Shown here piece after piece: positions 7,978 through 41,125 of a stretch of DNA of 43,828 bases. Numbering within the stretch: position 1 is the stretch's first letter; the number at the start of each line of letters is the position of its first letter. The translations under genes were made by a program, and so were the position numbers. This stretch comes from a virus, in the IMG/VR virus record IMGVR_UViG_3300005531_000238, positions 1 through 43,828 of that record. One strand, given 5' to 3'. The notes under the pieces were generated by a model. It saw only the letters and a program-made list of their open reading frames with translations. It searched no databases and was not told the DNA's origin.

Positions 7978-8787
7978 ATGATCAGGAAGATGACCCAAAA
8001 TAGTTGTTCTTCGAAAGTCGCAATCGCCATCGCGCTTGCCCTCATCGGCCCCACGATCCGCGCGCAGGACAAGACGAAGCCGCCGGCGGCCACATCACCG
8101 GATGCGCAGCACGGGACGGCGCGGCTTGACGACATCGATCATATCGTAGAAGATCCGCACCCAACTCCCGGATCGCGTTTAGACGATCCCGGATTTCAGC
8201 CTGACCTATTCCAGCCGCCTAAATTCAAGTCGAAAGCCGCTCCCGATCAGAGATTCGAGAGCATAGAGAAGGCGATTGCGGAGTTAGCGAAAGATCTTAA
8301 CCAATACGACCGAATGCTGCGGGCACAAGAGAAGCAGCAGGACGACTACCATGAAAAGGACATCGATCGAGTGCGTAAATTGATCGACTCATATTTCAAC
8401 ATCCTGGCCGACGCGATCTACAGCGAGCCAGCGTCGCTCAACCCAAGCGCCCTGGACGTGTATTCTCCGCTTCGTGCGAGCAACGGCCTGCCGATGCTCG
8501 CCTCTCTAAAATCAGTCGATACCTACCTCGATGGGTACAAGCTGACTGTGGATCTGGGCAATCCAAACTTTGCCACGTTGAGCAACTGCGAGGTTGTCGT
8601 CCGCTGGGGCCCGACCACAAAACAACTCGATCCAAAGCTACCCAACTCAAGGACCATCAAACTCTCGCGAACCCTCCCGCCGGGGTCTTGGACGCCAATT
8701 GAAATCATCGTTCCGAGCGCCAAGGCTCACGATCTCGGTGCAATCTCCATCAGCCTGAACGTGGATACAGTTGGACTATCGCGGTAA
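7978..8787 (+). CDS. secreted moron-like protein carrying a virion LDDI segment
   Basis: A 269-aa plus-strand protein with a strong GGGGAGGA ribosome site. An N-terminal Sec signal is visible (basic start, hydrophobic SKVAIAIALALIGPTI, likely cut after IRA before Q). Residues about 38-68 hold TARLDDID, HIVEDP and SRLDDP motifs, nearly the same as the N-terminus of the 1690-aa virion protein. A coiled-coil helix (about 95-140) follows. A beta-sandwich-like C-terminus has LDGYKLTVDLGNPNFATLSN and a VVVRWG strand, faintly like DUF3251 lipoproteins; that last link is a guess. Exported and transcribed against the phage operon, it may be made in the lysogen. Confidence 0.65.
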   Translation: MIRKMTQNSCSSKVAIAIALALIGPTIRAQDKTKPPAATSPDAQHGTARLDDIDHIVEDPHPTPGSRLDDPGFQPDLFQPPKFKSKAAPDQRFESIEKAIAELAKDLNQYDRMLRAQEKQQDDYHEKDIDRVRKLIDSYFNILADAIYSEPASLNPSALDVYSPLRASNGLPMLASLKSVDTYLDGYKLTVDLGNPNFATLSNCEVVVRWGPTTKQLDPKLPNSRTIKLSRTLPPGSWTPIEIIVPSAKAHDLGAISISLNVDTVGLSR

Positions 8788-9076: not shown

Positions 9077-12000
9077 TCAGTACGGCGATTTCGGAGCCCT
9101 CCGCCTCTTTGCGCCCTGAATATTGGCCGGCGCTTTCGTGAACCCGAGATAATTTTCGACGCGGTGTTCCGGGTTTGGCTCCTCCGGCAGCTTCTTGCCC
9201 ATCCGCGGCTGAAGCGTGAACGGCATAAACTGCCGGGCTACGAAATCCGCTTCCTGCAGCATCTGACGCATGAACGGATCGTCCGAGTTGCGGATCGGCC
9301 TATCGTAAAAATCACGGTTGTGCAGCATCTCGATGACGGTATTCGCCAGGGGCGAGGTCTTGTTCTCGACCGTACGCACCGGGTCGGTTCCGTAATGGTA
9401 GACGTCCTTCACATCCGTCGGCAACGCGATACGCTGCCCATTTTCGCGCTTCGGGAAGAAATAATCCTTCAATTCCCGCGGACCTTTCCCGGTGTGCCCG
9501 TACTGGTATAGCGCTCCGATCATGCCGCTCACCATGGGCAGCGCCAGCGTGTACGCCAGACGATGATACGCGTCAGGCCGGCGGCCGCGCGCCAGGTTAA
9601 GCAAGTCCATAGTGCCGCCGCCGATCTCGCGAAGCGTTCCCAGATTCCACCCCACCGACCGCACTATTAGGTGCAGAATATCCTTGAACGTCCGGTTCAG
9701 AAACAGATTGTCGTACACCACCTGCCCCATCCGGTTATCCACCGAATCCCAGATCGGAGCCATCGCCTTGCGGACGCTTTCGACGTTCGCTCCCGGACCA
9801 AGACGCTCTAGCGCATCGGCCGCCATCCCGTGGAACACCCCAAGCTTCAGGCGGGGGATGATATGCTCCATCATCGGCTTCGAAGTCTGCTCGAGCAGCG
9901 CCCACGGCGCGCGGATCAATGCTCCCGGAAAATTCCCCTCGCGCAGCGCCTTCATCATCGAATCCGTGGCGTTCGTCGCAAACGCCGCGTCCATCCGTAC
10001 CCGCCCGCCGCCCTTTGTGAGCGCATCGGTAATCGCCGCGATCGGCGCGCCCTCGCTTCCAGGCGTGAACCAATCATGCAGCACTTTCGAGCCGTTCACG
10101 TAATCGAGGAACGGAGCCGCTGGAAACGTCGCGATTCGCAGAGAGCCGCGCAGCGCCTTTCCGTGCAACAGATCCTCGATCCCCAGCGCGGCCCGCGAAA
10201 CTCCGGAGCGGATCACTTCTCCGGTCAGGTGGAACGCGGACAGACCGAGGTTCGCCTGGTTCATCGCGTTATTCACACCCGCCAGGATGCGGTACGCTCC
10301 CGATCGCGCGCGCAAGCCGGGAGTCAGGTAATTGTTGAGAGCGTCTGCCGCGCCCTGCTCGGCGTACCATTTCCCGCCGCCGCCGATCGGATCGCGGATA
10401 CTCACGAATCCCGGCGGCAGATCCTCTTTTCTGGCAACCGCCCATTCGCGCTTGATCGGCGCACCCTCGAACATCTCGCCCTGTCGTTCGACCGGCAGAT
10501 CGCCAGAAACCCTCTTCGCAATGCCGCGATCCGCCAGGTCGCGCAACACGGCGTGCGCCAGCAGATACCGATCCATCTCCCGGACCTTCATCATCACCAG
10601 ATCCACGGGATTATCACTCACCGGCTTAAGACCCGCCGCCAGCGCTTCTTTGAACGTCGGGAACTCGCGATGCTTCAGGAACGATTTCGGACCCTCCATG
10701 CTCCGCTTGCCGGCAAAGAACGACTCGAAAAACTTGGTTGCCTGCTCCGGCCGCTCAAAGATATGGCCGAAGTAGTTGGTGTAGAACTTCTCCAGCTCGC
10801 CCTCGCCGAGCGCCTGCACCTCGCGCCGGCGCTGGTCGAGCATACGCGCCAGTGGGCGCGCGATCTCATCCAGCGGACCTTGCTTGCTCCGGCCGAGCCC
10901 GTGCTCCACATCGTCGATGAAATCGTAGTTCGCCTGCTTGCTGCGGTTGTTGAATAACTCACGCGCCGCCTTCAGGCGCTCCATGCCCTGGTCGTAGCGC
11001 CGCGCGAACTGCGCCATCCGTTGACGCAGGCTCAAACCGGTATATTCCGCCGCCTCGCCGCGCAATTGCGGCGCAACCATGCGCAGCGCTTGGTCCTTCG
11101 CCTCCACCAGATCGGTAGCGACGCGCTTGACGGCGGGAACTACGTCGTTTTTGATGAACTCCGGGACGCCAAGGCCCAACATCTCGCCCGAGATCGATCC
11201 GCGCTCGCCGGAACCCTTGACGCGGCGGCTGGATTCGCCGATATTAAAATTGGGTCCGGTTGCTGGGGGAGTCGGTCCAGCACCCTCCGGGGCTCCGGGA
11301 ACGCTGACACTGGTTCCGGAGGCCGGCCCGTACTGATATCCAGTCAGGAGCCATTCAGGCAGCGACCCCTTTGAGGGCTTCCCGGAAACCGATCCGCGCT
11401 CCGTAGCGCCAGCGCCAAAAGCGTCCTGAAAAGCCTGATCGCGCGTCGGCGGTTCGAACATCTGCGACTGCGCTCCAGGCCGCGAAAGCGCCTCATCGTT
11501 CGCGTATCGCCGGAAACGGGCCGCCGCGCGCACCGGCGATCCCCCTAGTGCCTTGGCGATCTGAACCGCCTCCGGCGAGTACTGTCGGTTGCTCCAGATT
11601 CCCGACTGCTTCACCTGCTGGTCGATGTCGAGCTTATGCGCCCGAGCCTCTTGCGCCAGTCCGACCGCTTCACGCAACCGGTCGGTCAGCTCCCACTCAG
11701 GACGGCCCTCCACGCGCAAAATCTGCGGCGCAATGCGCTCCAGCTTCGCCCGCATCTCCGGCGTCGTCGCGCGATATTCAGCCGGAGAATCGTACAACCT
11801 GCCAACCAGCGCCTTGCCGATCCGCGCCTTGGCTTCCGGAGTCAGGTTGTCTTTATCGTCGAGATACCCACCCTTTTCCTGCTCGGTAACGATGCCGTCT
11901 TTCACCAGCCGGTTGAGGATTTCCGCGCCATCTTCGCCGCGCAGAGCGCCCGCGAGCGTGCCGTCTTCGCCCATCTCCTCCAGGCGCGAACCGATCGCCT

Positions 12001-14149
12001 GAATCGTTTCCAGCGACAGATGCCGCCCGTCCGACACCGCGCGCTCCTCTGGCGTCAACTCCGCGGCCGCGGCTTTGTTGAAATCGGTAATCGCCTTCTG
12101 TGCGTCGATCCCGCCGCCGACCTCGCGCGCCAGCACTGGTTTTTGGAACCGCTCAATTTCCGCCGGATCGATGCCAAACTGTTGCGCTTTTTGCAGCAGT
12201 TCAGCCCTGTAGCCGTCGGCATCCGCGCCGCCCCGCTTGTACACCCGCGCGAGCGTCATCGTGCGCGAATTACCGCCCAGCGCGTTTCCGTTCGCGTCCA
12301 CCACTGGCGTGCCATGCTCCGCGGTGGGAGCATCCGTCGTCAGGAAGCTGGGGTTGAACGTGCCCTCGGACGCGTTCTTCACAACACGCGCGGCATTGCC
12401 GGCGCGCGTATAGTCCCGATCGTTCCGATAAGCATATTCGCGGTTCGGCTCAAAGCTGAAGGGGTTGTGCGACGGCTGCACATCCGCCAGCTCGCGCACC
12501 GCGTAGCGCGCCGGATAATTCGTTTTCTCGCCGGGAACCGCTATCGAGACTTCGCGGCCGTACGCCGGAGCAACGGACGGCGCGCGCGCTTCCTGTTTTT
12601 CGCCCTCATTTGAGGAAGGAGAAGCAGAACCCTCGCTGAAATCCGTCTCGCCGTGCCGCGCGAAATACATCCCCGGCTTGTCCGGCGAGTCCACCGGAAC
12701 CAGAGTCCGCGCCTCGGGATCGAGATACAGTAACCGCGCCGGCTCCGGCCAGTTTCCTTGGCGGGTCATCTCGCCGGTATCGATCGAGCCATCCTCCGGG
12801 AACCCAGCCTTGGCCCACGCCTGCAACATGCGAATCTGCCGCCCGTGCGTCACGTTCAGCACGCGCTCGCCGGGCTGCATCTCGGTAGCACGGCTCTGAA
12901 TCGTGCCTATGAACCGATCCTTCGCCGCGTTAAAACTCTCTCCAGGTTCTCCGGAGTGCTGCCCCACGCCCTCCGGCGCTTCATCGGGCGTCTCAACGAT
13001 CCGCTTGTCAATCGCCGCGCGCTCCCGGTCGGCGGGCTGCCCTTCGTGCTCCCCAAGCTTCCACGGACCCAAGCCAATATCCGGCTGGGCGTTCGGATCG
13101 ACCATCCTCGCTGTTTCCATGGCCCGGTCCATCGGACTCGAATACACGCGGTCGAAGTTTCCAGAGCCCTGCTCGGCCAGCGCCGCCGATTGTTCCCGGC
13201 CGGTGTCGTTCAGGGGTGGATTGCTCGATCCGGTGACGCGCCGCCCGCCCGGCTCGCTGGATACAATGTCTTCCAGTTTCGCCGTACCAGATTGCGGCTC
13301 TTCCGCAACAATGTCGTCAAGAGAAGCCCGCCGCGGAGTTTCTTCTTCAGTAGCAAGCGCCTCCGCGCCAGCGCGCGCCGATTCAGCAGCCTTCGCCACA
13401 TCGGGTTCCGTCGTTTCCGCTGCGGCTCTTGGACCACCACGAACCGCGTGGACGCCCGCCGCTGCGCCCATGCCGGCGGTCAAACCAGCCTCGGTGATCG
13501 CCGCGGCCGCCGTGGGCCAGTCTTTCCTATCGATCGCGTCTCTGATCCGCGGATACTGCTTGTATGCGTTCCGCAGCATGTCAATGCTGAATCCCGCACT
13601 CACCGCGCGCGGCAGATACTTCGACACGTTGCCGAGCACGCCGAGACCACCAGAACCAGCCATCATCAGCAGGTTCGGCGCGGTGGTCATCCCTTCAGTG
13701 AATTGGAGCGCGCCCTTGCCGATGCCGCCGGCAACCGATTCCGGCGCGCCCGGCGCGAGCGCCGTAGGCCGAACCAGCGGCAGATCTGTAGTCGGCGTGT
13801 GTTGCTCCGCCGGAGCCTCGTAGGATATGCCCAGAGCCCGCCCTACCGGCGTGTCGGTTTCTCCCGGCGCGCCTTGCGGATTTCCCAGCACCATCCGCTT
13901 TAACCGCTCAAGGAACGATGGGGCTGCCGCTGGCCCGATCGTCGGGCCAGCTGGCCGCGCCTTGTTCAACTCGTTGTGCAGATCGGCTACCGCCGCCTGG
14001 TGAGACGATTCGAACTGCTCACGCGAAGGTAGATCCTCCGGCCGCTCCGGTTGCGCCGATAAAGGATCGATATCGTCAAGCCGCGCTGTTCCGTGCTGCG
14101 CATCCGGGCGCGGATCTTCAACGATATCGTCAAGCCGCGCCGTTGCCAT
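9077..14149 (-). CDS. giant polyvalent virion protein with permuted histidine phosphatase and ddrB-ParB domains
   Basis: A 1690-aa multidomain protein of the phage polyvalent-protein class, probably packaged and injected with DNA. Residues 1-30 hold two ARLDDI motifs, and two more (SLDDIV, KLEDIV) occur at about 276-296. Residues about 300-505 form a histidine phosphatase in permuted order: NPPLNDTGREQ, YSSPMDRAMETA (Arg342), GEHEG, VTHGRQ (His435), and only then MYFARHGETDF (His499), the motif that normally comes first. Residues about 540-640 and beyond match ddrB-ParB-like domains (VQPSHNPFSF, then LGGNSRTMTL). The remaining 850 aa is largely helical, with a glycine-rich hydrophobic region, as in large polyvalent-associated domains. 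GGAGTTGAG precedes the ATG; the start overlaps the previous gene. Confidence 0.75.
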   Translation of the reverse strand: MATARLDDIVEDPRPDAQHGTARLDDIDPLSAQPERPEDLPSREQFESSHQAAVADLHNELNKARPAGPTIGPAAAPSFLERLKRMVLGNPQGAPGETDTPVGRALGISYEAPAEQHTPTTDLPLVRPTALAPGAPESVAGGIGKGALQFTEGMTTAPNLLMMAGSGGLGVLGNVSKYLPRAVSAGFSIDMLRNAYKQYPRIRDAIDRKDWPTAAAAITEAGLTAGMGAAAGVHAVRGGPRAAAETTEPDVAKAAESARAGAEALATEEETPRRASLDDIVAEEPQSGTAKLEDIVSSEPGGRRVTGSSNPPLNDTGREQSAALAEQGSGNFDRVYSSPMDRAMETARMVDPNAQPDIGLGPWKLGEHEGQPADRERAAIDKRIVETPDEAPEGVGQHSGEPGESFNAAKDRFIGTIQSRATEMQPGERVLNVTHGRQIRMLQAWAKAGFPEDGSIDTGEMTRQGNWPEPARLLYLDPEARTLVPVDSPDKPGMYFARHGETDFSEGSASPSSNEGEKQEARAPSVAPAYGREVSIAVPGEKTNYPARYAVRELADVQPSHNPFSFEPNREYAYRNDRDYTRAGNAARVVKNASEGTFNPSFLTTDAPTAEHGTPVVDANGNALGGNSRTMTLARVYKRGGADADGYRAELLQKAQQFGIDPAEIERFQKPVLAREVGGGIDAQKAITDFNKAAAAELTPEERAVSDGRHLSLETIQAIGSRLEEMGEDGTLAGALRGEDGAEILNRLVKDGIVTEQEKGGYLDDKDNLTPEAKARIGKALVGRLYDSPAEYRATTPEMRAKLERIAPQILRVEGRPEWELTDRLREAVGLAQEARAHKLDIDQQVKQSGIWSNRQYSPEAVQIAKALGGSPVRAAARFRRYANDEALSRPGAQSQMFEPPTRDQAFQDAFGAGATERGSVSGKPSKGSLPEWLLTGYQYGPASGTSVSVPGAPEGAGPTPPATGPNFNIGESSRRVKGSGERGSISGEMLGLGVPEFIKNDVVPAVKRVATDLVEAKDQALRMVAPQLRGEAAEYTGLSLRQRMAQFARRYDQGMERLKAARELFNNRSKQANYDFIDDVEHGLGRSKQGPLDEIARPLARMLDQRRREVQALGEGELEKFYTNYFGHIFERPEQATKFFESFFAGKRSMEGPKSFLKHREFPTFKEALAAGLKPVSDNPVDLVMMKVREMDRYLLAHAVLRDLADRGIAKRVSGDLPVERQGEMFEGAPIKREWAVARKEDLPPGFVSIRDPIGGGGKWYAEQGAADALNNYLTPGLRARSGAYRILAGVNNAMNQANLGLSAFHLTGEVIRSGVSRAALGIEDLLHGKALRGSLRIATFPAAPFLDYVNGSKVLHDWFTPGSEGAPIAAITDALTKGGGRVRMDAAFATNATDSMMKALREGNFPGALIRAPWALLEQTSKPMMEHIIPRLKLGVFHGMAADALERLGPGANVESVRKAMAPIWDSVDNRMGQVVYDNLFLNRTFKDILHLIVRSVGWNLGTLREIGGGTMDLLNLARGRRPDAYHRLAYTLALPMVSGMIGALYQYGHTGKGPRELKDYFFPKRENGQRIALPTDVKDVYHYGTDPVRTVENKTSPLANTVIEMLHNRDFYDRPIRNSDDPFMRQMLQEADFVARQFMPFTLQPRMGKKLPEEPNPEHRVENYLGFTKAPANIQGAKRRRAPKSPY

Positions 14150-20146: not shown

Positions 20147-23100
20147 TCATTCCACGGCGTCAACCGGAAGATCGATCCAGGTGAACTCTTCCGGCGTCGT
20201 CCTCACCGGCATGGGCATTTTGTTCCACGCCTCCGGCGTCTCGCGCACCGGCATATTGAATTGCGCGAAATCGTCAGGGGTCGGCGGAAGCGGCACGTTC
20301 ACCCATTGCCAATCTCCGCCGTTCACGCCGAGCCTTCGAGCGAGGACCTTCAACTCAAAAAGGCGCGTCGGGTAATTCCCCTGCACGCGAAACTTGGTCA
20401 ACCGGCCCTTGGTATTCCCCGGCAGCCGCGACACGACAGGCGCGCGCCCGCTGGTCGTGAGCGTGGTATTGACGGCAATCGACGCCACCACGGCCATATT
20501 GAGGTTCGGCAGGTCCGTCTCTACCTCGAGCGTCATCGCGCCGCCGGTCTGCGCGACAATCACGATCTCCCGGTAAATCGCCGTACCGCCCAGCAGATCG
20601 AGCGGTTGCGTCTCCCATACCTCGCCCTGCGAGCCATCGAAGTACACGCCGATCGGCCGCACCCTGAAACTCGCCCGGCCGTGTAGCCGAAGGATTCCCG
20701 TGGGCGGGGGAACAATCTTCACTTGAAACAGATCGCCATAGGCCAGCACGTCGTTAAAATCTTCGCCCGCGAATGTATAGGGCTGGCGCGTCGCGCCCTG
20801 CACTGGAAGCGATAGCGTGCGCGCCGCCTGCAAGCCGCTCTGCCCCGGAAGGTCGGTGTAGATAATCACCTGGCCGCCCGCGGCGCTTGCGTCGTAATCG
20901 AGCATGAAATCTTTCAACTCACCGACGCGGCCCGGAGCCACGCTGAATTGCGGCGAAAGATAGAACTGACCAAGGGTACCGTCGAGCCATTCGCCGATCG
21001 CGCGCGAGCGGATAATCGCGGGTCCGTGCAGCCGGATATAGCCGCCGCTCGGCGGGTAAACCCGCACCTTGAAAATGCGCCCGTAGGGTAGATTCAGGCT
21101 CCCGTCTTCCAACTGGAAAAGAAATGGAAGCCGGGTCGATTCGACCGGCACGTTGAGCGTGCGCCGGATCGCGAGGCCATAGCCTGGCAGGTCCGAATAG
21201 ATCACAACCGTCGCGCCAACGCCGCTCACTTCATAATCGAGAAGCAGATCCTTCCATTCCGCGACCTGGTTATTATCGACGATGAAATCGGGAGACTCGT
21301 AATACTCCCCGATCGTCCCGTCGACATACTCCCCGATCACCCTCTGGCGCACGCGCAGCTTGTGAATCTGGAAATTAAGCGCTTGCGCCGTGAAGGTGAA
21401 GCGGAAATTCCGGCCCTCAATGAGACTCGGCAGCCTCATCCGCGCGTTGCCGCGGCCCAAGGGAGCCGTGAAGGTGTTCGTGTCGCGCTGAGTCAGCACA
21501 TTTCCTGGCAGATCGCTCGATAGAATTCGCTGGATCGTCTGACCCGCGCCCGTTAGGTAGAGCTCGAGATAATCCACCTGCTTCACGCGCTCCGGCTGCC
21601 CCAGATCGGTGAACCCCGAATCGATGGTGCTGGCGGCGCGCTCCTCCGGGTACCAATGGACGTACACATTGTAAATAATGCACGTGCTGGTCGCGTTGCC
21701 GGTGATCTGCACGGCGATGTTCTTCGCGCGCAACCCCTCGTCGGTCGCCCCCTCAACTTGGATGTTGAGCGAGGAAAGGCTAAACACCTGCGTTGTGCGA
21801 TTGGAGCTGGCGATCGTTCCCAGGCTAAGCACCGTTCCGTTGTCGTAGACGATCGATACAGAGAGCGTCGAGACTGGCTGAAATCCGCCGAAAGAGGTCT
21901 GGAAATCAATGACGATATCGGAATACCACTTAAAGTTGTCGGGTAGTCCCTGATCGGAAAAGCGCGACTGCCAAGCCAACGGAATGGGGTTTGCTCCGTC
22001 GAGCGCGGTTGACGCCTGCTCGATTGCCCACAATTGTCCAGCCCCGGAGGCCGTCACCGCGGCCATCAGCGAATTTCCCGCTCCCTCGTACTTCAAAGCC
22101 GTGAACCCGGTCGTCGAGGAGCCGAGATTCAGCTTCATCCTAGACCAGCGATAGGACGGGATCTGCCCGAAGGCGGTCTGCCCTGGCAACTGACAGATCA
22201 GCGTGACATTCGGGTAAGTCGAGCCCTGCTCCGGATAACTCACGTAGAGCCGGTCGTTAACGATCTCCAGCACGGAATTGACGATATTGACAGGATCGAT
22301 CGGAGGGAGATAGGTCCCGGTGCTCAACAGCACCGAATCGCCTTTAAAGATCGGATCGAGCACGCCGCTGATTTTCGCCTTATAATCCTGATTTCTGAGG
22401 TACACTCCCTCCGGACCCATGAAGTAGTCAATTTGTCCGGCATTGCACACCGCGCGCGGCCCGACCAGTCCGATGCTCGTGTCGATCAGCTGCGCGTCCA
22501 CGTTCGCGGGATCGCCAGGCAGCAGCCACAGCGACCGCTGCTTATACATGAGCGCGTACTGATTATGGTTGGTGATCGCAATCAGTTGATCGTCGTCGTT
22601 TCCCGCATCCTCCCAGTTCCCGTCGACATCGCCCGCGCCCGGAAAATGCCACGGTTCGCCGCTGTTGGTCCACCAGTAGCGCGCCGGATGCGCGGCGCTC
22701 GACCAGGCGAGGATCTTTCCAAAATAGGGACCCATGCACCCCGAAGCGGCGGGCGGCTGATCGCGATCGGCGGGAGCCGTGGCGTTGATCGCTTGCGCCG
22801 CGGCAACGCTCATCGTGTCCGTGAACGTTGTCGTAGTGTTGTCGGCGATCGTGCCGACCTTGAGCACCTGGTTCGATCCGAATCCCGTCCGCCAGATCCA
22901 GCGCTGCGTAACCTGTGGGTCGGCGGACACCGCAATCCCACTCAGGAGCGCACTCGCGTTTTGGCATGTGAGGATGCTCGAGGCAGGCGAAAGGTTCGAA
23001 TCTTCATTCGCCGCGTTCGCGAAGGACACAAAATACTGTCCCGAGCCGGTCAGGGTTCCCGAAGTGGTAAAAGTCGCGATGTCCAGATTAAAGACGCAGG

Positions 23101-24310
23101 GCTGGGTAAGATTGATCTGGAACTGGATGGCGCTCACCTTGGTCCAATCAATCTGCGTCACCATGCCCCGACTGAGCGCGGTTCCGTAGGGCGTGATGTT
23201 TGCCGGCATCGGTGGATCTCCAGGGACCATATCCACGTTGGTCATGGTGAACCTCCCCGCCACGATCTCAGTAAAGTGCGGAGTCGCAAGGGCCGTATTG
23301 AATTGCGCCTGAACGTCGTTCAACTGCGCCGTCAGGTCCGTGGTGTCGCTTCCGGCCGCGGCGGCGGCGTTGATCTGATTCTGGAGCGAAGAAATCTGGT
23401 TGATGAACTTGTCACAATCCACATTCCGCTTAATGCTGATCTGCGTCCAGGTGTTGGGTGCCAGATTCAGGCCGCCCACGTTGAGTTTCACCGCAACGAC
23501 CTGCTGCGACGGCCCTCCCGGATAATTTCCAGAAAAGATCAGAACGCTGAACGTGTCGATCGCCGCCGGATTGGTGCAGTAAAACCAGAAGGAATAGTAG
23601 TCGTTGTCGGCCGCGGGAATGCCTCCGGTAGTGTCCAGCGCGCTGCCCCGCTCGGTGTAAAGATTGTCGGTGACGACCCATAGCGCTGGATTCGCCGCGT
23701 TTACCTTGAGCGACGACGCGCCCTCCTGGAGGATGGCCGTATCGAAAGAAGCCGCGCCAGCCGGGAAGTTGTTGAAATTCCCGTTGCCATCCAGATAGCC
23801 GACGCTCAGGCCCGGAAACGTCACCGGATTTTGTCCAGGCGAGGTTTCGTTCCATCCTTCGACTCCTATCAGGTTGTTCGCAACGGACGCCACCATCGGG
23901 GCGGTCGTCGGCGGAGCGATGCCCCAATTCTGTACCGTCGATCCGGTGATGCGCAGTTGCCGAAGCCGGTTCATGAACCAGCCGGCTGCTTGGTAGAAAG
24001 CCACGCCAAGGGGATTTCCATCGAAGAAACCTGCCGCGATGGATGTTGGCGCTCCGGTTCCAGGCGTGTAAAACAGCCCGGTCCCGATGCCCGCGTAGCG
24101 GTCCGCTCCAGCGCGGGCGAGCGTATGAAAAACCCCACTCCCATAGCCAGCCCAGTAATTTATCGCGCCCTTGCGCGACCGCAATTCGCCGGCCTGATCG
24201 ACGCGCCAGTTGTCGAATTGCAGCGCCTCGCCATCGGCAAGCTTTTCGCCCGGCGGAAGCAGGTTCAGGCCGGAAGAGAGAATGCGTTGCTTTTCAGTTT
24301 TGGAGGCCAT
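20147..24310 (-). CDS. large beta-rich tail protein (nozzle/tubular type)
   Basis: A 1387-aa protein. The N-terminus (SGLNLLPPGEKLADGEALQF and NWRVDQAGELRSRKG) is the pattern of podovirus tail/DNA-stabilisation or nozzle-type proteins. The first 850 aa is a mixed beta structure including WLLPGDPANVD-like propeller strands. From about residue 930 there are at least four tandem modules of 105-115 aa sharing a VxIYxDLPG strand, a YG-FxVxVxPP strand and a LHGxA-xRxRxIG strand. The last 40 aa repeats a short Met-Pro-Val-Arg-x-Thr-Pro-Glu unit. Its place after the adaptor genes supports a distal tail role. No Shine-Dalgarno; GGCAATT lies 9 nt upstream. Confidence 0.65.
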   Translation of the reverse strand: MASKTEKQRILSSGLNLLPPGEKLADGEALQFDNWRVDQAGELRSRKGAINYWAGYGSGVFHTLARAGADRYAGIGTGLFYTPGTGAPTSIAAGFFDGNPLGVAFYQAAGWFMNRLRQLRITGSTVQNWGIAPPTTAPMVASVANNLIGVEGWNETSPGQNPVTFPGLSVGYLDGNGNFNNFPAGAASFDTAILQEGASSLKVNAANPALWVVTDNLYTERGSALDTTGGIPAADNDYYSFWFYCTNPAAIDTFSVLIFSGNYPGGPSQQVVAVKLNVGGLNLAPNTWTQISIKRNVDCDKFINQISSLQNQINAAAAAGSDTTDLTAQLNDVQAQFNTALATPHFTEIVAGRFTMTNVDMVPGDPPMPANITPYGTALSRGMVTQIDWTKVSAIQFQINLTQPCVFNLDIATFTTSGTLTGSGQYFVSFANAANEDSNLSPASSILTCQNASALLSGIAVSADPQVTQRWIWRTGFGSNQVLKVGTIADNTTTTFTDTMSVAAAQAINATAPADRDQPPAASGCMGPYFGKILAWSSAAHPARYWWTNSGEPWHFPGAGDVDGNWEDAGNDDDQLIAITNHNQYALMYKQRSLWLLPGDPANVDAQLIDTSIGLVGPRAVCNAGQIDYFMGPEGVYLRNQDYKAKISGVLDPIFKGDSVLLSTGTYLPPIDPVNIVNSVLEIVNDRLYVSYPEQGSTYPNVTLICQLPGQTAFGQIPSYRWSRMKLNLGSSTTGFTALKYEGAGNSLMAAVTASGAGQLWAIEQASTALDGANPIPLAWQSRFSDQGLPDNFKWYSDIVIDFQTSFGGFQPVSTLSVSIVYDNGTVLSLGTIASSNRTTQVFSLSSLNIQVEGATDEGLRAKNIAVQITGNATSTCIIYNVYVHWYPEERAASTIDSGFTDLGQPERVKQVDYLELYLTGAGQTIQRILSSDLPGNVLTQRDTNTFTAPLGRGNARMRLPSLIEGRNFRFTFTAQALNFQIHKLRVRQRVIGEYVDGTIGEYYESPDFIVDNNQVAEWKDLLLDYEVSGVGATVVIYSDLPGYGLAIRRTLNVPVESTRLPFLFQLEDGSLNLPYGRIFKVRVYPPSGGYIRLHGPAIIRSRAIGEWLDGTLGQFYLSPQFSVAPGRVGELKDFMLDYDASAAGGQVIIYTDLPGQSGLQAARTLSLPVQGATRQPYTFAGEDFNDVLAYGDLFQVKIVPPPTGILRLHGRASFRVRPIGVYFDGSQGEVWETQPLDLLGGTAIYREIVIVAQTGGAMTLEVETDLPNLNMAVVASIAVNTTLTTSGRAPVVSRLPGNTKGRLTKFRVQGNYPTRLFELKVLARRLGVNGGDWQWVNVPLPPTPDDFAQFNMPVRETPEAWNKMPMPVRTTPEEFTWIDLPVDAVE

Positions 24311-24319
24311 CCACTGAAA

Positions 24320-24326
24320 AATTGCC
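24320..24326 (-). promoter_or_regulatory. GGCAATT box before the 1387-aa tail gene
   Basis: GGCAATT ends 9 nt before the ATG at 24310, in a 15-bp spacer with no Shine-Dalgarno site. Confidence 0.5.
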
Positions 24327-24946
24327 TAGCGGGCTTCACCCCAATAGCCTTCGATGACCTGCTCCATCCAACCGGTCAGTTGCCGCAGCCACCCGGCGAC
24401 TTCCTGCATCTGCATCTTGGTTTCCTTGGCGCGCGCCTCCGCAATTGCGCTCAAGGTAAAGTATTCCCGGATGCACTGCGGAGCCGCCACAATCGGTGTC
24501 CCGCTGGCGATGGTCGGAGGGTACGCGTGCAGTACCAGGCCGATCGTCAGCCCGGAATTATTGGCGTCCGGAGCCGGATACACCGCGATTAGACCAAGTC
24601 CCTGAACGTTCTGCACAAAAGAAACCGGCTGTCCCTGCGTCGTCGGCCAACTCGCATCGAGATACTCCAGTTCCTCGACTGTGCGCGGCGAAAGGACAGT
24701 CCCATTGAGATCCGCCTGAATCGTCGCCACTTGACTCGCGGGCAGATTGTAGGTTCCCTGAGAGAACGAGGTGGTCAAAGATGTGTCGCGTGAAACGAAA
24801 ACGCCAGCCGTGCGCGCTAGCCGCTGCCCCGCCTCGTCGAACCACTGATACAGTTCCGTGGAGGTCCAGAAGACAAGATCAAGCCCGCTAGCAGCGTTAA
24901 GCTGCGGAATCACATCCAGGAGCGCCTGTGAACAGTCAACGCTCAT
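24326..24946 (-). CDS. head-tail adaptor-like protein, copy 3
   Basis: A 206-aa protein with the same order as the 242-aa and 394-aa proteins upstream. An N-terminal helix carries LYQWFDEAGQRLAR, a beta region holds TYNLPASQVATIQADL and LGLIAVYPAP, and C-terminal helices carry REYFTLSAIAEARAKETKMQ. This resembles podovirus adaptor/tail-tubular subunits that form a ring below the portal. The start has neither a Shine-Dalgarno nor a good GGCAATT box. It follows the permuted NlpC/P60 gene after 13 nt. Confidence 0.5.
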   Translation of the reverse strand: MSVDCSQALLDVIPQLNAASGLDLVFWTSTELYQWFDEAGQRLARTAGVFVSRDTSLTTSFSQGTYNLPASQVATIQADLNGTVLSPRTVEELEYLDASWPTTQGQPVSFVQNVQGLGLIAVYPAPDANNSGLTIGLVLHAYPPTIASGTPIVAAPQCIREYFTLSAIAEARAKETKMQMQEVAGWLRQLTGWMEQVIEGYWGEAR

Positions 24947-32737: not shown

Positions 32738-33655
32738 CTATTGCCCAGGATTACCGATCAGGCCCAGATAATTGTTCCAGCCATGGCTCTTGCGGTAACG
32801 CATTCCCACAATGCCGACTTCGGTGTAATCATCGGTCCAACTCTTCGTGTACGGCTGCTTGCGCCAGAACCAGATCAGGCCCGTGTCGGCCGGCTCGGCG
32901 CACAAGAACCATGCGTTCGGCGCGGTCAGGTACGGCCAGACGAACGGCTTCGGCATCCCGTCGATTGCCCCGGCAAGCGGGTTCACCGAGCGATCGGCGG
33001 TCGTCGGATCATCGGGCGAGCGGAGCAGCGCGTGAGCAAGGAACCGATTGTTCGGATGCACCACGAGACGCCGGAACTGGATACGAATCAGTTCTCCAGA
33101 CGGCCGTTTCATCAGTTCCCCGGCCGTCATTGCCGTTTCCAGCGACAGGATGTCGAGATCCGCCGCCGTCATCGCGTTGGACTGCAAGCCTCCGGCCTTA
33201 AATAGCGGGTGAGTCGTCGAGAACAGCGGCATGCCATCCGGGCCGGGAAACGCGGCATTGAATCCGTTGTTGAACGTCGAAGCCGCGTCGAGTTCCTGCG
33301 TCTCGTAGCAGCTCCAGCCAAGATCCTTGTGGATGTTGCTGATCAGGTCCCATTTGTCGTCCTCGACCACATCCACCGTGGTCGGAACCGCCAAGCCGAA
33401 GCGCTTGTGAACAAACGTCGACTTGAAACCCTGCACGGGCTGATCGGTGCGGATCGACTTGCCTTCGTCGATCGCCGCGAAGCGCCCAACACCGGACACC
33501 TGCGAAAACTGCTCGATCGACCGATCCGAACTCTTCACGTTGAAGATCTGCGAGAACTGAGGCGGATACCGCCGCAGTCCGCGGTCGATGACCGCGCGCA
33601 GAGCGGGGAGCATGTTCACCCCGTAGAAATCCGTCATGTTGCCTTGTACGAGCAT
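32738..33655 (-). CDS. major capsid protein
   Basis: A 305-aa protein matching phage major head subunits of the HK97 fold (Mu gpT-like branch). Features include an N-terminal helix with LRAVIDRGLRRYPPQFSQIF, a FKSTFVHKRFGLAVPTTVDV E-loop/strand segment, the ISNIHKDLGWSCYETQELDA spine helix, LFSTTHP, the AMTAADLDILSLETAMTAGE P-domain and RRLVVHPNN. It lies between the decoration protein and small head genes. ATG at 33655 has GGGAGGG upstream; an internal ATG at codon 7 is less likely. Confidence 0.85.
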   Translation of the reverse strand: MLVQGNMTDFYGVNMLPALRAVIDRGLRRYPPQFSQIFNVKSSDRSIEQFSQVSGVGRFAAIDEGKSIRTDQPVQGFKSTFVHKRFGLAVPTTVDVVEDDKWDLISNIHKDLGWSCYETQELDAASTFNNGFNAAFPGPDGMPLFSTTHPLFKAGGLQSNAMTAADLDILSLETAMTAGELMKRPSGELIRIQFRRLVVHPNNRFLAHALLRSPDDPTTADRSVNPLAGAIDGMPKPFVWPYLTAPNAWFLCAEPADTGLIWFWRKQPYTKSWTDDYTEVGIVGMRYRKSHGWNNYLGLIGNPGQ

Positions 33656-39397: not shown

Positions 39398-41125
39398 CTA
39401 ATCGTCATCGTCGCGCCGCGGCTGCCCGTACGGGACCATCGGCCGCCGGTCCACCTCGCGCTCCACGGTCACGATGCGCTTTTTCGGAGCATAACGAAGT
39501 CCGATACACGCCAGCGCCGCCGCAATTACACAATCGTCGTGACAGCCAGTTTGATGTTCGGCTTTCCCGTTCGGCTTGATCACGAAGGTCCGGAATTCCT
39601 GAAGTGCGATCGGACTTCGGATGGTGATTGCCATCTCCCGCACCGCATCGTCGAGCGCCGACACCAACCACGGCCTGGTTACGTTCGTCGTCTCGAAACC
39701 GATCTCTTCCGGCTGAGCGCTGCGGCGGTCAGTTGGATCGCGGCGGCGGTTATAGATCATCGCGAGCGGATAGTTCTGCCGCAGAATCGCATCGATGAAT
39801 CCAGCGTCGTTCGCCTCCGGAACCAAAAACGCCCAGTTGTACACCTCCGCCAACAGCGCCAGATATTCGGCAAACGGGACCGGCCGCAATCTTTGCCTGA
39901 GCATCGCAACTTGCTCGCCGGTGTGCTGGTCAATCACGAATCCTACCGAGAAGTCCGGGTCCGCGCCGCGCTGTTCTTCCGACACGTCTTTTCCCTTGGA
40001 CGGATCAGCGCCGATGACGTACTGGTGTCCCGGTTCCGGTTTTCTCCAGATTGTTAGAGCGCCGTGCGCGCGCGCCACCCACCGAATCTTCCTCCGGGGA
40101 AACTCCTCGATTACCTGCAGCTCGCCCGCGGTGCCGTTCGAAACCGGCATACGCATCAGAGCCTTGTGATCCAGCGCGGGCCGACCCGAGCTGAGAAATG
40201 CCTCTTCCGCCGTCGTCGGGTATTCCTGATGGAAATCCTCGACTCGGCCATTGAACGACGTCCGGATCTTCCAACGCCGCCAATGAAGCTGCTCAAGGGT
40301 CGCTCCGTGCATCGCCTGAAGTTGTTCTTCTTCTTCGTCCATCGTGCGTTGTAGCTCTAGCGCATCGTCCTTATCGTCGAAGGCCAGGCAGTTGTTTACG
40401 TCCTCCAGCCAGCCGAAGAACAGAAACTGCCAGCCCTCCGCCGTAGCCGGGTCCATCGCCATCAGGCAGCGCTTATGCCATTCGTCACCCTCGCCGTTCG
40501 CCGTGGATTGCTCGATGATCCCGGTCTCTGGCAGATCCGGAACCATCGTTCCCGCGGCCCTGATCGTTTCCGCCGGCGCGCGCCAGAACGCCACCTCGTC
40601 GAACAACGCCCAGTGCCGGCCGCCGCCGCGGATTTCTCCGCGGTCCGCGGAATATACGCTCAGCATCGGACTGTCGGGGGCATCTCCATCGCGAAACAGC
40701 GCCATATCCGCCGCGCGGATCGGCTTCATCCGGATTGATGCGCCGTAACGGGTAAACGGCTTGTACCCCTCGGCGAAGGTGCGGCAGTAACTGAACGCCT
40801 CAAGCGCCGCCGGGTCATACCTGTCGGCGATGATCATCGCCCTGCGGCCACTCCAGAACGCGATTTCCTTGAGGATGTGCGAGCAACTTCCGAGCGTGAA
40901 TCCGGAGCGACGGGTCTTGAGAATCCGGACTCGCACCGGCTTACCCATACGTCGCTGTGCACTGATCGCCTTTGCGAGTGTCATCTGACTCGGCCAGCAC
41001 TCGAACGGAACAAGGTTACCGATGCGATCACGGACCCGCAGCGATTCCCGGCAGAATGACGGATGATCGTTGAACTCGGCGATGAGACGCTCCCGCTGTG
41101 GTTGTGTCAGATCAGATGGCCTCAT
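39398..41125 (-). CDS. terL: terminase large subunit
   Basis: A 575-aa DNA-packaging motor. The ATPase half has a Walker A-like KTRRSGFT (70-77), Walker B ALFDEVAF (173-180, Asp-Glu pair) and a likely coupling motif near TANGEGDE (208-215). The RNase-H-like nuclease half has Asp374 (VIGADPSKGKD), Glu437 (VPEANDAGF) and the Asp pair at 530-531 (CHDDCVIAA). All key residues are present. The start overlaps the sigma factor stop as ATGA. It should cut the concatemer and load DNA through the portal encoded next. Confidence 0.93.
   Translation of the reverse strand: MRPSDLTQPQRERLIAEFNDHPSFCRESLRVRDRIGNLVPFECWPSQMTLAKAISAQRRMGKPVRVRILKTRRSGFTLGSCSHILKEIAFWSGRRAMIIADRYDPAALEAFSYCRTFAEGYKPFTRYGASIRMKPIRAADMALFRDGDAPDSPMLSVYSADRGEIRGGGRHWALFDEVAFWRAPAETIRAAGTMVPDLPETGIIEQSTANGEGDEWHKRCLMAMDPATAEGWQFLFFGWLEDVNNCLAFDDKDDALELQRTMDEEEEQLQAMHGATLEQLHWRRWKIRTSFNGRVEDFHQEYPTTAEEAFLSSGRPALDHKALMRMPVSNGTAGELQVIEEFPRRKIRWVARAHGALTIWRKPEPGHQYVIGADPSKGKDVSEEQRGADPDFSVGFVIDQHTGEQVAMLRQRLRPVPFAEYLALLAEVYNWAFLVPEANDAGFIDAILRQNYPLAMIYNRRRDPTDRRSAQPEEIGFETTNVTRPWLVSALDDAVREMAITIRSPIALQEFRTFVIKPNGKAEHQTGCHDDCVIAAALACIGLRYAPKKRIVTVEREVDRRPMVPYGQPRRDDDD

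Follow-up and report, generated by a model that had tools for sequence, protein, structure and literature searches.

A probable circular permutant of the histidine phosphatase fold in a phage polyvalent protein

The DNA considered here, referred to as the window, is a stretch of 43,828 nucleotides from an uncultivated soil phage. Residues about 302-505 of a protein of 1690 amino acids encoded on its minus strand very probably constitute one complete branch-1 histidine phosphatase (HP) domain, circularly permuted. The chain would begin just behind the RHG strand, in the loop there, continue through the remaining elements, and finish with the RHG strand itself, which a short linker connects to the old C-terminus. 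An earlier note on this DNA had proposed a circularly permuted histidine phosphatase within a polyvalent protein, and the proposal is supported by a rotated-profile test, by independent homologues, and by AlphaFold2. The permuted order of motifs does lie in one minus-strand open frame, within the region to which that note had assigned it. The relevant features are the following.

9077..14149, minus strand: polyvalent protein carrying the permuted domain, 1690 amino acids, a single open frame
14123..14134, minus strand: first LDDI tag, residues 6-9
14069..14080, minus strand: second LDDI tag, residues 24-27
13400..13795, minus strand: N-terminal module, residues 119-250, conserved, hydrophobic/helical
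13265..13321, minus strand: a further pair of tags, LDDI (277-280) and LEDI (292-295), just ahead of the phosphatase domain
12689..13246, minus strand: body of the permuted domain, residues 302-487 (PF00300 and AlphaFold2 elements)
Residues 311-317, minus strand: PPLNDTG motif
13109..13141, minus strand: SSPMDRAMETA motif, residues 337-347, with R342, the second arginine of the phosphate pocket
13034..13069, minus strand: GPWKLGEHEGQP loop, with Pro362 where PhoE-type enzymes have the acid Glu (alignment to 1ebb/1h2e and phage relatives)
Residues 402-407, minus strand: PGESFN motif
12842..12850, minus strand: THG motif (in VTHG), with the second catalytic histidine, His435
12671..12688, minus strand: new linker SPDKPG, residues 488-493, from the old C-terminus to the RHG strand (alignment)
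12638..12670, minus strand: displaced first strand MYFARHGETDF, residues 494-504, with the nucleophile His499
12122..12529, minus strand: ddrB-ParB domain (PF18763, Pfam E 1.7e-17), residues 541-676, following the permuted domain directly
24326-24946, minus strand: SU10-type adaptor
32738-33655, minus strand: major head protein
39398-41125, minus strand: terminase large subunit

The Pfam profile His_Phos_1 (PF00300) matches residues 302-447 over positions 14-159 of its 194 (E 6.1e-22), with a score of 78.7 bits against a cut-off of 21.7. Since the match starts at profile position 14, the first strand, with its RHG, is missing at the front. The nucleophile motif is found on the last strand rather than on the first, where branch-1 enzymes have it, with RHGET at residues 498-502 (one residue beyond 497-501, where the earlier note had put it). 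According to the alignment, the second arginine and second histidine of the phosphate pocket are retained (R342 and His435), and the proton-donor Glu/Asp of branch-1 is absent, Pro362 standing in its place. A second RHG upstream, which would have restored the normal order, does not exist: no RHG precedes the domain, and no other RHG[EQ][TS] occurs in any open reading frame of the window of at least 100 amino acids.

An RHGET within 60 residues is expected from composition at a frequency of about 3e-5. When the strand of the window domain is rotated to the front, the PF00300 score rises from 84.6 to 100.4 bits, that of CobC from 49.3 to 63.8 bits, and that of PRK07238 from 42.2 to 58.6 bits. 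With a control HMM built from ordinary HPs only, rotation gains 15-26 bits in all eight aligned permuted sequences, and shuffled strands (20 per sequence) gain about 0 on average. Set on the PhoE/YhfR structure 1ebb, positions 207-220 of the permuted-family profile correspond to chain residues 4-17 and positions 6-158 to chain residues 17-162; the two blocks abut in swapped order and together cover the fold with neither gap nor overlap, as a circular permutant should. An HMM of my own matches with positions 17-156 first and positions 2-14 after them. A chance RHGET is ruled out by the composition estimate, the shuffled strands, and the recurrence of the arrangement in independent contigs.

AlphaFold2, run on an alignment of eight members of the permuted family, predicts a confident histidine-phosphatase fold (mean pLDDT 88.8, pTM 0.86) with the elements H19-32 E38-41 H45-54 H77-90 H110-127 E133-138 H140-151 H162-166 E177-181 E186-189 E197-202. 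The last of these, E197-202 of the modelled fragment, is the RHG strand, and it sits in a block of mean pLDDT 96. In a control, the ordinary phage HP L041 (pLDDT 86.8, pTM 0.87), the RHG strand comes first (E5-9) and the same series follows, so the permuted order is the ordinary order rotated. The top Foldseek matches of the permuted model in the PDB are all branch-1 HPs. On the same CobC and PhoE entries the permuted model reaches sequential TM scores of 0.53-0.58 and L041 scores of 0.75-0.79, the lower values being those expected when one strand is out of order. The earlier note had looked to such a prediction to place RHGET next to His435: RHGET is indeed predicted, with confidence, to be a strand belonging to this fold, and its place beside His435 is something I infer. 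The RHG strand would occupy its usual position, flanked by the VTHG strand and the C-terminal hairpin. His499, R498, R342, and His435 would then make up a phosphate pocket of the normal kind, and the new ends of the chain would lie at its rim.

The same note had called for a database search for this order of motifs, and nine further IMG/VR contigs have it. They were found by scanning IMG/VR twice with DNA patterns that had RHGET as their key, which gave 23 loci, 21 of them genuine HPs and two spurious short frames. The order is ordinary in 11 of the 21 (L032, L033, L034, L038, L041, L042, L047, L048, L051, L053, and L054), and RHGET is last, as in the window, in nine (L035, L036, L039, L043, L044, L045, L046, L049, and L050). 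The presence of the same rearrangement in nine other phage contigs indicates a genuine variant of the protein rather than a peculiarity of a single sequence. Most of the nine lie in large polyvalent proteins of phages. Five of them (L035, L036, L039, L043, and L049) carry the domain in frames of at least 1256-1613 amino acids and four (L044, L045, L046, and L050) in frames of 334-447 amino acids; L045 is partial, about a third of the body being lost. The remaining locus, L052 (2241-3140, minus strand), is a giant phage protein with a second, different permutation, cut after the RA..T helix, so that HMM positions 71-154 come first and 2-65 second.

The eight complete RHGET-last members align end to end and are 29-43% identical to the window domain. 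G-x-Y and RHGET are invariant on the C-terminal side of the alignment, although the invariance of RHGET is partly ascertainment, as it was the search key. L044, L045, L046, and L050 form a related group with VPTSS in place of the second histidine and a conserved C-terminal extension, ARAQIIAHxRxGxxxxA. Two of the loci in ordinary order are fusions: L047 (3-2459, plus strand) is a lambda-type portal protein (Phage_portal_2) with a C-terminal histidine phosphatase, and L054 is a similar fusion to a larger protein.

Other searches yielded nothing of the kind. No permuted relatives came from searching IMG/VR with a single protein or with a first alignment, and a THG...RHGET pattern with fixed codons gave only chance matches. 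Cultured phages, searched by tblastn with P0002 and five permuted relatives, gave partial ordinary-type matches or nothing, and plasmids gave ordinary HPs but no permuted ones. A junction profile, which recovers known permuted members at E values from 1e-32 to 4e-4, found nothing in 794 bacterial genomes, of which 396 belong to the phylum of the host and 398 to another phylum.

The protein that carries the domain has the character of a polyvalent protein: it is a large, multidomain phage protein with a ddrB-ParB-type domain and variable cargo. Both the ddrB-ParB domain and the LDDI tags that the earlier note had claimed are present, the tags as two pairs. Upstream lie structural genes in the same direction, for an SU10-type adaptor, a major head protein, and a terminase large subunit; amid the structural genes is also a frame of 1387 amino acids (20147-24310, minus strand) that matches nothing in Pfam or PHROG. 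The N-terminal module is shared with polyvalent proteins that lack a phosphatase (L019, L020, L021, L023, and the viral L027-L031), taken from Terriglobia genomes and IMG/VR; no phosphatase was found in the stretches of these relatives that were examined. In L020 the module is joined directly to the ddrB-ParB domain, with no phosphatase between, which marks the phosphatase of the window as a module added between the two. A contig from a Terriglobia MAG is identical to the window protein up to residue 447, where the contig ends, and this identity suggests an acidobacterial host for the phage.

The tags extend beyond this protein. The PDAQHGTARLDDID tag occurs also at 8098-8140 on the plus strand, in an unrelated frame (7978-8787, plus strand) whose start resembles a signal peptide, and the two DNA copies of the tag form a 43-nt inverted repeat with a 93% match. 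Related polyvalent proteins (L027, L030, L031, and L023) each have their own short tag, repeated twice N-terminally, and some have a third copy after the N-terminal module, just before the variable cargo. Examples are FDADSFMAG/FDADAFMAK/FDANAFMAA and TVSPEAFLAS/KVSPEDFLGQ/TVSPEDFLAS. Such repeated tags could be a signal for packaging, processing, or assembly.

What the domain does is a separate question from how it is folded. Of the readings considered, the favoured one is a phosphatase module that the virion delivers and that acts on a phosphorylated host or defence molecule, and an enzymatic, injected role for the window domain has, in my estimate, a little less than an even chance. As part of a polyvalent protein expressed along with the virion genes, the domain would be an exchangeable piece of cargo, carried into the cell, where it may remove phosphate from, or bind as phosphorylated ligand, a host or defence-related molecule. 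Pro in place of the usual acid Glu suggests that the substrate has a good leaving group or that a different acid does the work. Injection is suggested by the position of the gene, which lies on the same strand as the genes for head, adaptor, and terminase and downstream of them, together with the known behaviour of polyvalent proteins. Permuted relatives are fused to an Acb1/2'-5' RNA ligase fold (L039), an ADP-ribosyltransferase (L036), and a DarB-like methyltransferase region (L035); regions of the Acb1, ADP-ribosyltransferase, and DarB types are typical conflict domains.

The most serious rival is that the permuted fold is a phosphate-binding module no longer capable of catalysis, which binds a phosphorylated ligand or has a role in the structure or assembly of the virion. 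I consider this rather unlikely, but several observations speak for it. The second histidine is lost in six of the ten RHGET-last members, replaced in L035 (NR), L049 (TS), and L044, L045, L046, and L050 (TSS), so the family is not uniformly catalytic, and the body of L045 is a third short. The position of the acid is never Glu in a permuted member (the window, L039, and L043 have Pro there), and in PhoE-type enzymes that Glu serves as proton donor. HPs of ordinary order, moreover, are fused to the portal (L047) or to other large phage proteins. Against this, four of the ten (the window, L036, L039, and L043) keep both histidines, and the pocket arginines and PGES are conserved, none of which a dead scaffold would need.

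It is very improbable that the domain works by swapping, the RHG strand completing the fold of a neighbouring molecule so that the active enzyme is oligomeric. The linker, only about 6-12 residues, would have to cross the C-terminal hairpin within one chain, which favours a swap, but AlphaFold2 places the strand confidently in a single-chain model, and L036 (3-3770, plus strand) has a whole ADP-ribosyltransferase domain (PF03496, E 3e-10) set into the linker, an insertion compatible with any topology. A fragmented or chimeric HP, in which a truncated phosphatase and the first strand of a lost second copy share no fold after the decay of a tandem duplication, fits the usual route to permutation (tandem duplication with loss of both ends) and the decay visible in L045, but appears largely refuted and extremely improbable, given that eight diverged members conserve strand, linker length, and motif in a full-length alignment and that strand and body come together in a single confident AlphaFold2 domain.

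In a tree built on rotated sequences, with nine RHGET-last rows included, the permuted members and the ordinary phage HPs L041, L042, L047, L048, L053, and L054 form a supported group (99/97), separate from bacterial-type HPs. The nine rows fall on one side of a weakly supported branch (68/93), by which a single origin is neither shown nor rejected; L052, cut at a different place, requires a separate event of permutation. The textbook route to circular permutation is tandem duplication followed by loss of the outer parts, and the permuted HPs may have arisen in this way; no tandem intermediate was seen among the loci found. Since Pro stands at the acid position also in the ordinary L041, L047, and L048, the loss of Glu is probably older than the permutation. 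An adaptive reading, which I hold to be improbable, would have the catalytic strand placed late in the chain so that the enzyme stays inactive until threading into the cell is complete and the module has refolded; copies that lack the second histidine would sense a phosphorylated defence signal or act as a decoy for it. That reading would cover at least two re-cuts of the fold in polyvalent proteins, one after RHGET and one after the RA..T helix (L052).

The histidine phosphatase superfamily is very large. The window domain shares with branch-1 members (PF00300; PhoE/YhfR 1h2e, CobC 6e4b/6nru) the fold, RHG, the second arginine, GES, THG, and the order of all other elements, but differs from PhoE and CobC in having the RHG strand last, Pro for the acid Glu, and a place inside a phage protein of 1690 amino acids. 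The small ordinary phage HPs L041 (matched by phrog_12933), L042, L048, and L053 are nearer: they are grouped in the tree with all permuted members, and the two sets have in common an L-R-P-W-x-x-G-E-L loop that in most of them has no acid Glu. They differ from the permuted members in their normal order and in standing alone, or, in L047, in being fused to the portal. The resemblance to polyvalent proteins with ddrB-ParB/DarB-type domains (Iyer et al. 2017, PMC5512222; phage P1 DdrB) lies in the giant multidomain late-region make-up, the ddrB-ParB domain, and the interchangeable cargo. The text of that 2017 survey does not mention phosphatase, phosphoglycerate, or permutation. Within the open-access literature searched, no paper speaks of both circular permutation and histidine phosphatase. 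Circular permutation and phosphoglycerate mutase occur together in five papers, once or twice in each, which to judge by their titles deal with other subjects, and the permuted phage domain is apparently undescribed.

I found in that literature no report of a natural circular permutant anywhere in the superfamily, and search tools that assume collinear order match such domains only in part. With 10 of 21 motif-bearing phage copies permuted, in two ways, the evolution and folding of permuted enzymes become directly testable. The finding also adds phosphatase-type cargo to polyvalent proteins, beside Acb1-like, ADP-ribosyltransferase, and methyltransferase modules, and its place among these conflict modules points at a phosphate-based step in the conflict between phage and host.
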